A DNA stretch of 40,200 nucleotides from a bacterium (GTDB taxonomy: Bacteria; Pseudomonadota; Alphaproteobacteria; Rhizobiales; JAKIUO01): assembly GCA_024228495.1 (NCBI GenBank), contig JAAETJ010000423.1, forward strand, positions 1 through 40,200. Direction: 5' to 3'. Position numbers and translations under genes: made by a program. A model generated the notes under the pieces. That model had not been told where the DNA came from. It was given only the letters and a program-made list of their open reading frames with translations, and did no database searches. Shown piece after piece: positions 35,791-40,200 of this stretch; within the stretch, counting starts at the first letter, position 1; each line of letters begins with the position of its first letter.

Positions 35791-36151
35791 GCGGCGTTCC
35801 TTTGCACAGAATTGGATCAGCGAACGTTTTTTCAACCGTGCAGGGCGCGGGCCCTGTCAGTGAATAGGCCAAGATTTTCGTCATATATCAACAAACCGGT
35901 CGAAAATAGTTGATATCGATCAATTTAAATCGAACAATTTGCCCCGAAAAAGAGGTTTCACGTAGCGAGGAATAGTTCGTATAACTCGTTGAAAAAATCT
36001 GCTGCAATCTTTCACTTAATTCGTCTTAAATCGCAATATCAGGAAAATGTACAGTCATTTTTGCTTGCAGTTTTAGGTGCGCTGTGGGGATGCAGATTTT
36101 ATAAGGGGAGGCCGGGTGTTTCAAGGAACAAGAAATGCGTAAAAAATGCAG
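35791..36151. other. Intergenic region between hisI and pit
   Basis: 361 bases without a supported gene. It contains the FNR/FixK-type box at 35910-35923 and should hold the pit promoter. An open plus-strand frame from 35989 continues into the antisense of hisI and is a shadow. The hisI 3' end shows no strong terminator hairpin here. Confidence 0.4.
35910..35923. promoter_or_regulatory. FNR/FixK-type box (perfect TTGAT-N4-ATCAA)
   Basis: TTGATATCGATCAA is a perfect 14-base palindrome matching the FNR/FixK/Anr consensus exactly. It sits in the 361-base gap upstream of the phosphate transporter, 119 bases before its ATG. The other neighbour, hisI, is on the same strand with its 3' end facing the box. 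The transporter is therefore the only gene it can plausibly serve. Oxygen-responsive control is inferred from the motif alone. Confidence 0.65.
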
Positions 36152-36616
36152 CTATTTCTTTTTACCATAAACCTCTTTTGGATCAAAAAGTGGGGCATCT
36201 TCCTTTAAGTCCAGTTGCAGGTCGGGCAACGGGGCATAGCCAGTGGGAATGGCGCGAAAGAAGCAGCTTTTATAGCCAACATGGCAAGCAGCTCCTTTTC
36301 CTTGTTGCTCAACACTCATCCAGATGGCGTCCTGATCGCAATCGGTGCGCAGCTCGATGATGCGTTGCAGATTGCCGCTAGTTTCGCCCTTTTTCCAAAG
36401 CTGGTTGCGTGAGCGGCTCCAGTAATGAGCAATGCCGGTTTCAATGGTCAACGCCAGCGCTTGTTCGTTCATATAGGCCAGCATCAGTACATCACCGGAT
36501 TTGGCGTCGGTGGCGATGGCCGGTAACAGACCATCCTTGTCAAATTTTGGTGAAAAAACCGTGCCGGTTTCAAGCTGGTGCTTGTCAGGGCGATCCGCAA
36601 ATTTTGAGGTGCTCAT
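36152..36616 (-). CDS. hisI: Phosphoribosyl-AMP cyclohydrolase
   Basis: 154 residues, the single-domain form without HisE, as usual in alphaproteobacteria. It opens the adenine ring of phosphoribosyl-AMP in histidine synthesis. Landmarks are [18 protein letters not shown]-like [19 protein letters not shown], the metal-binding DCDQDA motif, and the zinc cysteines in [12 protein letters not shown]. The C-terminal tail is charged. It begins three bases after the folE stop on the same strand, a conserved folE-hisI pairing. Both act on purine-nucleotide rings, but the pairing reflects genome order rather than one pathway. Confidence 0.95.
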
Positions 36617-36619
36617 GAT

Positions 36620-37267
36620 CTACCGTTTCCACCCTTCGTTCTTGATCATGTCCAAGAAGCGATTTTGCAAGTGCTGATCGGTTTTAAACACTCCGGTAAA
36701 TTTGGTGGTGATGGTCGCTACATTTGGTTTTTGCACACCGCGCAGGGACATGCATTGATGCACGGCTTCAATTACGACAGCGACGCCTTTGGGCTTTAAA
36801 GCCTCATCTATGGCGCCAGTGATCTGAGCGGTCATGGTTTCCTGGGTCTGCAAACGCCGTGAATAAATCTCGACAACGCGAGCCAGTTTGGAAATGCCGA
36901 CAACCGTGCCCGTTGGGTAATAAGCCACATGTGCCTTGCCAAGGAAGGGGATCATGTGATGTTCGCAATGGGAGTTGATGTCGATATCACGCAGCAAGAC
37001 GATATCATCATAGCCACTATCTTCATTGAAGGTACGCGACAGGGCTTTTACGGGGTCTTGCTCGTACCCCTTGAAAAAGTCGTTGTAAGAATTGACCACA
37101 CGCTTTGGCGTATCGAGCAAGCCGTTTCTTGTGGGATCGTCGCCGGCCCAGCGAATGAGCGTGCGCACAGCTTCTTCGGCTTCGTCCCTTGAAGGGCGGA
37201 TGATTTTGCCATCAGATGTTTTAATGTCTGAATTTTCTTTCAGCAATTTTTTAGCAATAGCGTCCAT
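36620..37267 (-). CDS. folE: GTP cyclohydrolase I
   Basis: 215 residues from the ATG at 37267; a TTG two codons earlier is less likely. It converts GTP to dihydroneopterin triphosphate for folate. The family motifs are present: SHCEHHMIPF with the zinc ligands Cys and His, GTVVGISKLARVVEIYSRRLQTQE, and HQCMSLRGVQKP with the second zinc Cys. Length and motifs fit the FolE type IA. It is first of a two-gene unit with hisI. It is divergent from the IscU-like gene across a 350-base region. Confidence 0.95.
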   Translation of the reverse strand: MDAIAKKLLKENSDIKTSDGKIIRPSRDEAEEAVRTLIRWAGDDPTRNGLLDTPKRVVNSYNDFFKGYEQDPVKALSRTFNEDSGYDDIVLLRDIDINSHCEHHMIPFLGKAHVAYYPTGTVVGISKLARVVEIYSRRLQTQETMTAQITGAIDEALKPKGVAVVIEAVHQCMSLRGVQKPNVATITTKFTGVFKTDQHLQNRFLDMIKNEGWKR

Positions 37268-37530
37268 CGTCAACTTCTCTCACCTTCACGTTCATTGTAT
37301 CCTGATTGTAATCGAGGATCATTTATACATATTCAGACATTAGTCATACGAATCGATTTCCGCAAAAAGAGAGTCTCGTGCTTAGCTTTGCAAGTTCATC
37401 TGGAAGGGTTATAATTTCCCCAAAAACAACGTCCTTTGTATAACTAACGCGCCATTATGGCGATTGGTTCCCTATAACCATATATATTGGTCGGGATTGT
37501 GCTGCAAGTATGAAGCTTATCTAATATATG

Positions 37531-37554
37531 TTCGCGCCGCTTCTAAGGCGCGAA
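37531..37554. repeat. Perfect 8-bp stem-loop (hairpin 1)
   Basis: TTCGCGCC and GGCGCGAA flank an eight-base loop. It is GC-rich and lies about 65 bases before the IscU-like start codon. Neither strand has a U-tract after it, so it does not look like a terminator. It could be a transcript-leader structure or an operator. Confidence 0.5.
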
Positions 37555-37574
37555 TTTGCCAAGTTCATTGGGGG

Positions 37575-37602
37575 GCTATATCTTCAAGGTTGAAGATATA
37601 GC
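37575..37602. repeat. Perfect 12-bp stem-loop (hairpin 2)
   Basis: GCTATATCTTCA and TGAAGATATAGC are exact inverted repeats around a four-base loop (AGGT). The right arm ends 16 bases before the ATG of the IscU-like gene, close enough for an mRNA hairpin to affect its translation. As DNA it could equally be the operator of a dimeric repressor. No T-run follows. Confidence 0.6.
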
Positions 37603-37618
37603 AATAACAAGGCTGGAA

Positions 37619-38062
37619 ATGAAAGAACTTTATACCAATGAGATTATGTCATTTGCTGCCCATATCCCTCATATAGGCTTAATTGAAGGGGCGCAGGGGA
37701 GTGGCAGTGCTCATTCAAGGCTGTGCGGGTCTCGTATAAATGTATGGCTCAACATGGAAGAAGGCGTTGTTACTGAATTTTCACAGGAGGTGAAAGCCTG
37801 TCTGGTGGGGCAGGCCTCTGCTTCTATGCTGAGTCATAATATCATTGGCTGTTCGCGACAAGAAATCGCTCAAACGCGCGAAACCGTGCGCCTCATGCTC
37901 GAAGAAGAGGGTACTGCCCCTGTTGGCAAATGGCAGGCTTATGAGCTTTTAATCCCGGTTCGTAACTATAAGTCTCGCATTAGCACGGTGCTGATTGCCT
38001 TCGATGCGGTACTTGATGCGATGGATATGGCCCTTGAAAACAAAGAAGCAAGCAATGTCTGA
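37619..38062 (+). CDS. IscU/NifU-N-like iron-sulfur cluster scaffold protein
   Basis: 147 residues from the ATG at 37619. The pattern is that of the IscU-like scaffold: HSRLCGSRINVWL with C36 and VKACLVGQASASML with C61. The third cysteine of classical IscU is absent at the end (SRISTVLIAFDAVLDAM has Ser where Cys is expected), as in a group of alphaproteobacterial homologues next to folE/hisI. It may therefore bind clusters differently or act outside the main Suf pathway. It overlaps the next gene by eight bases, so is translationally coupled to the cupin and yidD genes. Two hairpins precede it. Confidence 0.78.
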   Translation: MKELYTNEIMSFAAHIPHIGLIEGAQGSGSAHSRLCGSRINVWLNMEEGVVTEFSQEVKACLVGQASASMLSHNIIGCSRQEIAQTRETVRLMLEEEGTAPVGKWQAYELLIPVRNYKSRISTVLIAFDAVLDAMDMALENKEASNV

Positions 38063-38534
38063 CAAGTCTTATCCTTACAAAGCTACCATTGCGGATCTGC
38101 TAGCACGGATCGGTTCGGGGTATCCGGCTCCGTTTCATGAACCATGTACCAGCCGTGAAAAAACTGTGCTCGGCGACGCAGTCGGGCTGTCACAATTTGG
38201 GGTCAATCTGCTTGTTTTGAATCACGGCGACTGGTCCGCCCAGCGCCATTGGCATCAAAACGAGGACGAATTTGTCTATATCCTTGAAGGAGAAGTGACC
38301 CTTATAATTGATGAGGGGGAAAGCCTTTTGAAGGCTGGCGACATTGCCGGTTTTCCTGCTGGCCAGTCAAATGGTCATCATTTGGTGAACAAAAGCACCG
38401 CCATTGCGAAGGTATTTGAGGTGGGAACGAGGTGCCAAGCTGACGTGGTGGATTATCCTGATGTGGATATGACAGCCAAAAAAGAGGAAGCAAAATATCG
38501 TTTTTTATACAATAACGGCGATCCTTACGAATGA
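38055..38534 (+). CDS. Cupin-domain protein
   Basis: 159 residues starting inside the end of the IscU-like gene. The central cupin motifs are clear: HWHQNEDEFVYILEGEVTLI with metal-type His/His/Glu, then LKAGDIAGFPAGQSNGHHLVN with the second His. The C-terminal part (YPDVDMTAKKEEAKYRFLYNNGDPYE) is charged. The family covers many enzymes and sensors. Substrate and metal cannot be told. The stop overlaps the yidD start by four bases (ATGA), so the three genes form one coupled unit. Confidence 0.82.
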   Translation: MSDKSYPYKATIADLLARIGSGYPAPFHEPCTSREKTVLGDAVGLSQFGVNLLVLNHGDWSAQRHWHQNEDEFVYILEGEVTLIIDEGESLLKAGDIAGFPAGQSNGHHLVNKSTAIAKVFEVGTRCQADVVDYPDVDMTAKKEEAKYRFLYNNGDPYE

Positions 38535-38887
38535 CTTTCCTTGCAAAAATTACCAAAGCGATACTGCGTGCGCCGATCCTTGTTTATCGCTATGGCATAT
38601 CCCCCTTTTTACCAGGCGCTTGCCGCCATTTGCCGACTTGTTCGGAGTATGCATCCGACGCCATTGATCTCAATGGTGCCTGGAAAGGCGGTTGGCTGAC
38701 CCTGTCACGCATCTTGCGGTGCCACCCATGGGGGTCGCACGGACTTGATCCAGTACCGGATCTGCGAGAGGAGTACCAGCCAATGTATGCGCCCTGGCGC
38801 TATGGCCGCTGGACGGGCACCCATATCAAGGAGCGCTTTAATGAAGACGGGCTGCGGGGTAGGAATTGCAAAAACGGCGATCATTAG
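38531..38887 (+). CDS. yidD: YidD membrane protein insertion efficiency factor
   Basis: 118 residues. The small family supports insertion of membrane proteins with YidC. The conserved core is seen at residues 10-60: YRYGISPFLPGACRHLPTCS, EYASDAIDLNGAWKGGWLTLSRILRCHPWG and GLDPVPD. The N-terminal amphipathic helix probably binds the inner membrane. In many bacteria yidD sits between rnpA and yidC. Here it follows a cupin gene, which is normal for Hyphomicrobiales. The C-terminal 30 residues after DLREEYQ are variable. Confidence 0.88.
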   Translation: MTFLAKITKAILRAPILVYRYGISPFLPGACRHLPTCSEYASDAIDLNGAWKGGWLTLSRILRCHPWGSHGLDPVPDLREEYQPMYAPWRYGRWTGTHIKERFNEDGLRGRNCKNGDH

Positions 38888-39045
38888 ATTCTTTCCCAAT
38901 GATTTGGCGGAGTTATTGCGGGGTTGGTACGTAGAACGCGACTAAACATTCAAAAACCACATCGCCCTCCTACGGGAACTTCTAAAAATTCTCCAGAGTG
39001 CATCTTGATCGGCCAGGATGACAATAGCGGAGAAACTGATTCGGT

Positions 39046-39159
39046 TATTGTTGCCAGCGCCATCAGACGACGGCTCTGCTAACCATCACACGCTAGGGCT
39101 GCCAAACGCCGTAACTCCTCACAACTATAATCATCCCGCAATTTGATCGCCCCTGACAT
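39046..39159 (-). pseudogene. IS630-family transposase remnant (N-terminus, with in-frame stop)
   Basis: Reading the minus strand from the ATG at 39159 gives MSGAIKLRDDYSCEELRRLA, then ALACDG, a TAG stop, and QSRRLMALATI. IS630 transposases begin MSxAIxLRxDxxxxELRRLA, followed by QARRLLALAxV, so the match is clear across the stop. Homology fades after about 39046, so only the N-terminal 40 residues survive. A C-terminal fragment of the same family is at 4392-4558. They are too far apart to be one element and point to at least two old insertions. Confidence 0.62.
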
Positions 39160-39397
39160 TGCACCTCTCCCAATCAGTTGAAACAACAATTATAGAGAAT
39201 CACAATTTAGTCCTGATGGGAATCCATCAATTGTGAGTCGGCACTTTCGCAAGCTGGTATTAGTTCCTTGTTAACAGTAATTCTATACATAATTTGAAAC
39301 ATATATATTGGTACTTTTTGTCGCACAAACATAATAACATTTGAATATTCAGATATTCTATTATATATCTTGTTTCCATCAGTAACAGATCCGGCAA

Positions 39398-39414
39398 AGA
39401 TGCCTGAAGCATCT
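39398..39414. repeat. Small hairpin in the leader of the repeat-protein gene
   Basis: AGATGC-CTGAA-GCATCT is a perfect six-base stem with a five-base loop, 29 bases before the ATG. In a transcript it would lie in the 5' untranslated region and might stabilise the mRNA. It could also be an operator. No further support. Confidence 0.35.
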
Positions 39415-39443
39415 ATCGGACAACAATAGATGGAAAAAAGACA

Positions 39444-40001
39444 ATGAAAAAGATTATGAAAACAGCATTGGTTGCCAGTGCACTCGTTCTTGCAGCTACT
39501 CAGGCTAATGCTTGGGGTTTTGGCAACTGGGGCAACAACTCGGGCAATGGTTTTGGTAATGGCGCAGGTAACGGCGCTGCCAACGGTACAGGAAATGCTT
39601 CTGGTGGTTTTAACTTCGGTTTCAACGGCAATGCCCAAGCTAAAGGTAACACCGCTTATAATGGCGATGTTCGCACTGCTTACCAGGGAAATGGTTATAA
39701 CGGTTATAACGGTTACAACGGATACAATGGATACAACGGATACCGCGCTCCAATGGGTTACCGCGCTCCAGCAGCTGGTCTTCCAGCCGCACCAGCTGCC
39801 GCACCAACTGTTCAGGCTCCAGTAGCTCAGGCTCCTTATGGGATGCAGGCTCCTTATGGAATGCAGGCTCCTTATGGAATGCAGGCTCCTTATGGAATGC
39901 AGGCACCTTGGGGAATGCGTGCTGCACCAGCACCATTGGCTCCTGTTGCTCAGGCTAAACCTGTTGCTCCAGTAGCGCCAGCTGTTAAAAAAGTGAACTA
40001 G
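39444..40001 (+). CDS. Secreted Asn/Gly/Tyr/Pro-rich repeat protein, sulfur-globule-protein-like
   Basis: 185 residues. A Sec signal peptide (MKKIMKTALVASALVLAATQ, cleavage after ANA, about residue 23) is followed by a WGFGNWGNNSGNGFGNGAGN-type Gly/Asn region. Next come six NGY repeats (about 83-100) and five near-identical QAPYGM repeats (about 129-158). The end is Pro/Ala-rich with a basic terminus (KKVN). No Cys and few charged residues in the mature part. This composition and order (signal peptide, W-GN/Asn-Gly block, Gly-Tyr block, Pro/Ala/Val tail) resembles the structural proteins SgpA/B/C that coat periplasmic sulfur globules. Other secreted glycine-rich matrix or adhesive proteins are possible. 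A TGGAAAAAAGAC segment precedes the ATG. A strong terminator follows. Confidence 0.6.
   Translation: MKKIMKTALVASALVLAATQANAWGFGNWGNNSGNGFGNGAGNGAANGTGNASGGFNFGFNGNAQAKGNTAYNGDVRTAYQGNGYNGYNGYNGYNGYNGYRAPMGYRAPAAGLPAAPAAAPTVQAPVAQAPYGMQAPYGMQAPYGMQAPYGMQAPWGMRAAPAPLAPVAQAKPVAPVAPAVKKVN
39690..39743 (+). repeat. Six tandem 9-bp repeats encoding NGY
   Basis: The unit AAYGGNTAY (AACGGTTAT or AATGGATAC) is repeated six times without interruption inside the secreted repeat-protein gene. The synonymous codon changes between copies show that the peptide, not just the DNA, is conserved. Such arrays can change copy number by slippage without frameshift. Confidence 0.9.
39828..39917 (+). repeat. Five tandem 18-bp repeats encoding QAPYGM
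   Basis: The unit CAGGCTCCTTATGGAATG occurs five times in frame. Copies 2-4 are identical, the first differs by one base, and the last reads QAPWGM. The near-identity suggests recent expansion. Any gain or loss of a unit keeps the reading frame. Confidence 0.9.
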
Positions 40002-40064
40002 TCTTGGTTGCAATAAACGAACAAGAAACGCTGCGGGCTGGTTGTAAGAACATGACAGAAGCAA

Positions 40065-40093
40065 AAAAATGCAATGGGGTCCCGTTGCATTTT
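40065..40093 (+). terminator. Hairpin after the repeat-protein gene (first of two)
   Basis: AAAATGCAA and TTGCATTTT flank a GC-rich centre (TGGGGTCCCG), about 65 bases after the stop. The right arm ends in TTTTA. It may assist termination or protect the mRNA 3' end. The stronger terminator follows 16 bases later. Confidence 0.5.
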
Positions 40094-40108
40094 ATCCCCC
40101 CCAAAAGG

Positions 40109-40141
40109 GAGCACAGATTGCGGGATCTGTGCTCTTTTTTT
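40109..40141 (+). terminator. Strong rho-independent terminator
   Basis: GAGCACAGAT-TGCGGG-ATCTGTGCTC is a perfect ten-base stem with a six-base loop, followed by seven T. It closes the transcript of the secreted repeat protein. A hairpin this strong suggests the gene is highly transcribed. Confidence 0.88.
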
Positions 40142-40200
40142 GTGGGCAAAGCAACTTGCTGCTCGCCAGAAAAGCGACGGTGTTGATCGGTCCGCTATGA
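40142..40200. other. Right edge of the window
   Basis: 59 bases after the terminator with no supported feature. An open plus-strand frame crossing this region begins inside the terminator leader and has no family features. Confidence 0.3.

Follow-up and report, generated by a model that had tools for sequence, protein, structure and literature searches.

A probable sulfur-globule envelope protein encoded in an alphaproteobacterial genome with dsr and sox genes

The window (the whole stretch of DNA analysed, 40,200 nucleotides) comes from an alphaproteobacterial draft genome (G000; 1254 contigs totalling 5.1 Mb, with a completeness of 99.38% and a contamination of 4.52%). Near its end lies a reading frame at 39444–40001(+), known from the ORF list and the translation of the window, which starts with ATG, encodes 185 amino acids and is here called sgp. 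The window and its contig, C422, both terminate 199 bp past the sgp stop codon. The gene and its surroundings comprise the following features:

38971..39047, no strand assigned: dispersed repeat of about 75 bp, a neighbour outside the function of sgp; nine further contigs of the source genome each carry a copy at 76–92% identity
39046..39265, reverse strand: dispersed repeat with a transposase 5′ remnant, MSGAIKLRDDYSCEELRRL..., and an internal stop read by eye (DNA search)
39269..39443, forward strand: conserved upstream block, promoter / 5′ UTR (DNA alignment with congeners)
39444..40001, forward strand: sgp-type gene, PF17228, 185 aa (Pfam, shuffles, family alignment)
39444..39512, forward strand: predicted Sec signal peptide, residues 1–23 (by eye; A21 and A23 invariant and the next W nearly so among 14 aligned sequences)
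39600..39635, forward strand: signature SGGFNFGFNGNA, residues 53–64, one copy (G54, F56 and F60 invariant, G62 nearly so, among 14)
39693..39743, forward strand: NGY array, 9/18-bp tandem repeat (tandem-repeat scan)
39828..39918, forward strand: QAPYGM array, 18-bp unit, 5.1 copies, 94% match (tandem-repeat scan)
39919..39998, forward strand: Pro/Ala/Val tail ending in KKVN (translation; a P/A-rich tail also occurs in the aligned family)
40066..40093, forward strand: first hairpin past the stop codon (repeat scan, folding)
40097..40146, forward strand: second hairpin and T-run, intrinsic terminator (repeat scan, folding)

The protein opens with a putative Sec leader, MKKIMKTALVASALVLAATQANA|W, in which an A-x-A site and ANA|W cleavage can be read by eye, and the mature chain is computed at 162 aa, 16.3 kDa and pI 9.7, with neither Cys nor Glu. 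A first-pass annotation had described a leader, a W/G/N block, NGY and QAPYGM arrays, a Pro/Ala tail and an absence of cysteine, and each of these is present in the translation, the leader and the W/G/N block as read by eye. Its further suggestion of recent repeat expansion fits one repeat and not the other: aligned by eye with three congeners, the window protein has five QAPxGM units against three, three and two, but a single FNFGFNGNA module against two in each of the same congeners. A PDB search with the protein returned nothing below 0.027, and a single-sequence AlphaFold model was uninformative (mean pLDDT 49.5).

The upstream block carries CACTTNTTGTCGCA at 39312, with one mismatch in the window, and TTTGAATATTC at 39340. 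Over the 164–165 bp before the ATG, identity with genomes G001, G002 and G004 is 90%, and coding-sequence identity, with gapped columns excluded, is 86% (G001) and 84% (G004); across about 190 bp, the block retains 81% identity in G003 and 73% at a paralogue on contig C1011 of the source genome. A sigma-70 consensus scan found no excess of sites (2 found versus 1.9 expected). Downstream, a pair of hairpins forms when 40060–40150 is folded, with a T-run after the second; z is −5.26, and none of 200 shuffles is as stable. The program terminator scan did not list the site after sgp, and the DNA match with G001, G002 and G004 stops at about 40144–40153. Two further promoter candidates were rejected. 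For a sigma-54 promoter, TTGGCAC...TTGTCGCA has the spacing GG-N11-GC by eye and not N10, and the GG is missing at C1011. For a promoter element common to sgp and the sulfur-oxidation genes, the 14-base element, with one mismatch allowed, is absent from the dsr (L046) and sox (L047) stretches. The commoner 11-base TTTGAATATTC occurs with one mismatch at 9 further places, one of which, L046 15287(-), is about 175 bp before dsrA, an unproved association that may be chance.

First, at the level of protein family, the sole Pfam match of the window protein is PF17228, sulphur globule protein, at 40.6 bits (E 4.6e-10; cut-off 26.7), so that the profile search proposed at first pass places the protein over the gathering cut-off; in a six-frame search the gene scores 30.3 bits, and an NCBIfam scan of the protein gave nothing meaningful. 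A match by chance or composition is excluded by shuffling, as none of ten shuffled versions (five global and five local, within blocks of 20) matches the family. Six of eight relatives scanned also exceed the PF17228 cut-off, and the two below it include a copy on contig C587 of the source genome (18.5 bits). Alignment of 14 members from 10 genomes shows ten invariant positions, including the leader A-x-A and three core residues, and a family core of G-x-F-x-[MF]-x-F-x-[GA] in the 14 sequences. With a home-made profile built from this alignment, the source genome contains two sgp-type genes besides the window copy, which scores 116 bits on C422, followed by those on C1011 (106 bits) and C587 (68 bits). 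A fourth, weak stretch (34 bits with the same profile) lies within a modular frame of 431 aa on C587, which reaches 25.1 bits against PF17228 in the six-frame search, below cut-off, and as a protein matches no Pfam family at E <= 1. As a side observation, L058 6759-7718(+) in G051 encodes an SGP-type N-terminal part that runs by eye into a long, charged, helix-like tail, and scores 25.3 bits, slightly under the PF17228 cut-off.

Second, the source genome encodes the enzymes of a sulfur-oxidation pathway. Contig C240 carries dsrA (553 bits) and dsrB, and near them dsrE, dsrF, dsrH, dsrC (TusE/DsrC family), DsrK and DsrO are over their NCBIfam cut-offs. DsrM, DsrJ and DsrP are the best families of their frames, yet fall below cut-offs that were set on sulfate reducers; for a DsrL-like frame the match is to a broad NAD(P)-binding subfamily, and by eye a further frame resembles dsrN. 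The dsrEFH genes are a mark of the oxidising direction of Dsr. On C216, soxX (62.5 bits, cut-off 61), soxA (235, cut-off 110) and soxB (687, cut-off 550) are over cut-off, and soxC, the fourth sox gene looked for, has no match in the genome at E <= 1e-10. The search that had been suggested, for sox genes without soxCD and for dsr genes, returned soxX, soxA, soxB, dsrAB, dsrEFHC, dsrK and dsrO, with no soxC match. The dsr and sox contigs differ from the sgp contig in this draft of 1254 contigs with 4.52% estimated contamination, and the congeners repeat the combination, with dsr in four of four and soxB over cut-off in three of four. Congener MAG records are JAJRPI and JAJRRW (Alphaproteobacteria, 'Dive100') and JALXEI (Hyphomicrobiales); Dive100 refers to a sample from the Longqi vents, for which vent chimneys are described in the accessible part of PMC9769843. 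The draft of one congener, G003, holds two dsrA copies over cut-off, on C235 and C271.

Third, sgp co-occurs with dsr across genomes. PF17228 was found at E <= 0.01 in 9 of 61 relatives, eight of them over cut-off, and in none of 14 control genomes. All nine of these relatives carry dsr: dsrA is over cut-off in seven, and in G001 and G004 the only match is dsrB-like and lies at or near a contig end. In the same nine, soxB is over cut-off in seven, a fragment in G012 and absent from G004; soxC is found in none of them, compared with over-cut-off matches in 14 of the 61 relatives. Across the order (397 genomes), PF17228 at E <= 0.01 occurs in 16 genomes, of which 12 are over cut-off, and dsr (dsrA or dsrB, E <= 1e-20) occurs in 41. 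All 12 genomes with PF17228 over cut-off are dsr-positive, as are 14 of the 16 at E <= 0.01; the four weaker hits divide into two dsr-positive genomes and two dsr-negative ones (G644 and G743, both below cut-off). Fisher tests by genome, without tree correction, give p values of 1.7e-13 (14/16) and 2.9e-13 (12/12), and by genus, again without tree correction, dsr occurs in 8 of 10 SGP genera versus 21 of 141 genera (p 2.4e-6). The home-made profile, whose rows came from 10 of the 16 hit genomes and not from G001–G004, G052 or G479, matches 16 of 41 dsr-positive and none of 39 dsr-negative genomes (p 5e-6), G644 and G743 giving no match. Because every genome with SGP over cut-off is dsr-positive, sgp implies dsr in the genomes sampled; dsr does not imply sgp, as 25 of the 41 dsr-positive genomes lack SGP by the home-made profile. 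In a class-wide set, PF17228 occurs in 1 of 385 genomes, the source genome itself, and SGP is missing from all five other dsr-positive genomes of that set. Within the set tested, the signature and profile separate dsr-positive from dsr-negative genomes.

This distribution bears on whether the protein could instead be a low-complexity secreted matrix protein, adhesin or envelope protein that resembles Sgps in composition and is unrelated to sulfur. Low-complexity proteins can mislead profile searches, and two weak PF17228 hits do fall in dsr-negative genomes; however, shuffles of the same composition match nothing, the F-x-[MF]-x-F signature is conserved and the family is confined to dsr-positive genomes, making this explanation highly improbable. 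The pattern that had been named as contrary to a sulfur role (no homologues among sulfur-globule proteins, no sulfur genes and relatives in non-sulfur organisms) is contradicted by the 14 of 16 PF17228 genomes that carry dsr.

We have high confidence that the window gene encodes a PF17228-family protein of the sulfur-globule envelope. That reading now has support at both sequence and genome level, from PF17228, dsr, and sox without a soxC match. The protein is very probably an exported sulfur coat, encoded in a genome with both sulfur-making and sulfur-burning enzymes. The protein would be exported by Sec and cleaved after ANA, leaving Trp as its mature N-terminus, and the low-complexity aromatic/Gly/Asn chain with its F-x-[MF]-x-F motif would assemble into a periplasmic skin around zero-valent sulfur. 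The source of this sulfur would be thiosulfate, converted by SoxXAB in the absence of SoxCD, with sulfide as a possible second source; once stored, the sulfur could later be oxidised by reverse Dsr, comprising DsrEFH, DsrC, DsrAB, and DsrMKJOP-type and DsrL-type components. For the window protein itself, we infer periplasmic location, sulfur binding, polymerisation and a function of the repeats.

Coat-protein-based sulfur storage has been studied mainly in gammaproteobacterial sulfur bacteria, and the present branch of bacteria is better known for rhizobia. The window gene thus represents a known protein family in a new setting, alphaproteobacterial lineages, a set of which would now be included among those with coat-based sulfur storage. 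Our comparisons with SgpA/B/C, SgpD and the Beggiatoa protein are by published description and not by sequence. Like SgpA/B/C of Allochromatium vinosum, as portrayed in the accessible parts of PMC10386293 and PMC8877833, the window protein has a putative leader, is small, is of Gly/Tyr-rich low complexity and occurs as several paralogues in a genome with rDsr and Sox. The A. vinosum sgp genes have their own promoter and terminator according to the same parts of these sources (PMC10386293, PMC8877833), to which the conserved upstream block and terminator hairpin of the window gene may correspond, its promoter scan showing no excess and other sgp copies of the order lying in clusters. Unlike SgpA/B/C, the window protein has an alphaproteobacterial host, is Asn-rich, carries a QAPYGM array and a basic Pro/Ala tail, and is not hydrophobic overall: the literature describes the Sgps of A. 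vinosum as extremely hydrophobic, and the GRAVY of the mature window chain is −0.47, a value set here against a verbal description and not against GRAVY scores of the A. vinosum proteins. SgpD of A. vinosum has repeats with regular prolines and a mature N-terminal Trp, is almost confined to Chromatiaceae and is partly helical, as far as the accessible part of PMC10386293 describes it; a helix-like charged tail is seen by eye on the SGP relative in G051 and not on the window protein. In the gammaproteobacterium Beggiatoa leptomitoformis, whose sulfur globule protein is a thiosulfate-induced candidate for a periplasmic coat, sgp disruption accompanies loss of sulfur storage (accessible part of PMC7356093); the window host is an alphaproteobacterium. 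A literature search that covered few subscription journals found no sgp together with dsr in Hyphomicrobiales in the accessible parts of PMC9995734, PMC9769843, PMC7356093, PMC12481199, PMC10686091, PMC8877833, PMC2702494, PMC5088516, PMC10386293 and PMC13207237; in the last, one Bradyrhizobium gene is annotated as sulfur globule protein.

The position of sgp in the window is less regular than its sequence. The sgp block starts 4 bp past the 220-bp dispersed repeat at 39046..39265, which carries a transposase remnant that we take to be of IS630 type and recurs at seven further places in the genome (88–98% identity); the copy on C281 is a remnant of 105 aa that matches DDE_3 weakly (22.9 bits versus a cut-off of 28.6). 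Copies of the adjoining 75-bp repeat also lie close to where contigs C726 and C182 end. The preceding part of the window, 36134–38974, is conserved in G001 (83%) and for the most part in G004 (80%), where sgp does not adjoin it; in G001, G002 and G004, the sgp orthologue instead adjoins sigma-factor and ATP-synthase genes. In the source genome, C726 and C182 both stop just where sgp would be expected, 358 and 221 bases, respectively, past the last homology and each after a 75-bp repeat copy, so that its own sigma-factor/ATP-synthase locus is split. The first 141 bases of C575 equal the end of the window, making C575 its likely neighbour in the assembly graph. A join of C587 to C726 was ruled out by the lack of any exact end overlap of 21–200 bases.

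Either the sgp unit of the window was moved by IS-driven rearrangement, or it was joined by the assembler across a repeat. The orthologous positions in G001, G002 and G004, the split locus at C726/C182 and the start of sgp 4 bp past a dispersed repeat would all fit a decayed or mis-assembled copy beside yidD, resulting from such a rearrangement or join, with its true neighbourhood elsewhere. We regard this as possible but doubtful; as none of its reading frame, upstream block and terminator is damaged, the window copy is not decayed, and misplacement would alter the address of sgp and not its identity. The C1011 paralogue, at L049 10578-11045(+), adjoins a fragment of an IS66-type transposase (33.3 bits; the cut-off is 23.1), and the repeats at 38971–39265, together with a genome of 5.1 Mb versus 2.7–3.8 Mb in congeners, are a hint that IS elements have expanded or that the bin is mixed.

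Elsewhere in the order, sgp has different company. In 46 stretches of DNA, we examined 28 frames with the sgp core, taking distances between open frames and not between start codons. At the loci of 8 of the 28, in eight genomes (G012:C225, G015, G052, G444, G446, G469, G479 and G739:C100), sgp is preceded on its own strand by an HlyD-type adaptor and an RND pump, the latter at a distance of 41–2944 bases, with Pro/Tyr-rich frames between pump and sgp:

L056 2183-11718, same strand: HlyD/RND/Pro-Tyr/sgp cluster, with a DUF4412-like partner after sgp
L063 3-6606, same strand: HlyD/RND/Pro-Tyr/sgp cluster, without the partner
L097 8571-18409, same strand: HlyD/RND/Pro-Tyr/sgp cluster, with the partner after sgp
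L101 57-8311, same strand: HlyD/RND/Pro-Tyr/sgp cluster, without the partner
L102 1771-11065, same strand: HlyD/RND/Pro-Tyr/sgp cluster, with the partner after sgp
L138 4412-13819, same strand: HlyD/RND/Pro-Tyr/sgp cluster, with the partner after sgp
L139 1100-12165, same strand: HlyD/RND/Pro-Tyr/sgp cluster, with the partner after sgp
L141 643-9486, same strand: HlyD/RND/Pro-Tyr/sgp cluster, without the partner

The cluster pumps are 52–58% identical to the G012 pump, and the two tested match ACR_tran (436 and 482 bits). An exported-looking partner lies at most 576 bases downstream of sgp at ten places in ten genomes (C587 of the source genome, G002, G012:C139, G015, G017, G051, G052, G446, G469 and G479); nine of these match the C587 partner at E 3e-33 or better, and DUF4412 matches are sub-cut-off in three of five partners tested and absent in two. 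A [PA]P-x-[DG]-[FY]DP motif, chosen post hoc, is common to seven frames of the 46 stretches. The window gene stands alone, next to transposon debris, and no cluster parts accompany it or the copies on C1011 and in G003 and G723 within the stretch examined. In G001 and G004, an adaptor lies 7–9 kb from sgp, and the source genome has an adaptor and partial pump on C726.

An exporter beside sgp could also suit a PF17228 protein of the same chemistry whose place of action is sulfur outside the cell or the cell surface, where it would stabilise excreted sulfur or anchor cells to it instead of coating periplasmic globules. The mature window chain is not hydrophobic overall, and dsr-positive bacteria may keep sulfur outside the cell (accessible part of PMC2702494); against this, sulfur-excreting Ectothiorhodospiraceae are reported, in the part of PMC8877833 available to us, to lack sulfur globule proteins, and we consider a surface role unlikely. 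Returning to the coat of a periplasmic globule, the clusters raise the tentative proposal, for which we would give slightly less than even chances, that the order has an undescribed sulfur-globule assembly system built on the RND pump cluster, with the window sgp as its solo, separately regulated coat gene. Such a system would comprise an HlyD-type adaptor and an RND pump whose C-terminus is extended by a long Pro/Ala/Lys-like stretch, together with sgp genes and Pro/Tyr-rich exported proteins, one or two of each, and an exported partner that distantly resembles DUF4412; the pump might move hydrophobic sulfur species or a coat component across the envelope. The link between exporter and sgp is only correlational, and it is the part of this analysis that would surprise a specialist. 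The literature search, mostly outside subscription journals, found nothing joining sulfur globules with an RND exporter. In A. vinosum, sgpD adjoins a gene for a 'hydrophobic/amphiphilic exporter' (accessible part of PMC10386293), which parallels the RND–sgp clusters in eight other genomes of the order; if that parallel is true, exporter-coupled globule formation would be general. Given clusters in which sgp is accompanied by an RND exporter and by a conserved partner, the question of how globules are built turns into one about named genes.

A further family upstream of sgp, defined by NPW at eight loci, was given less weight on three grounds: 28 of 2600 frames contain NPW, the best between-family BLAST E (0.003) is near the best among shuffles (0.016), and two of the eight loci (G446 and G051) have no leader directly before NPW. 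Finally, the C587 locus of the source genome (L048 1493-5045(-)) contains a modular frame, 431 aa or longer because the contig end removes its start, with GNARGNFGF modules and MPKVPEWVKKP repeats, together with a 251-aa exported-looking protein, sgp and the DUF4412-like partner, and the same order is seen in G002:C250.
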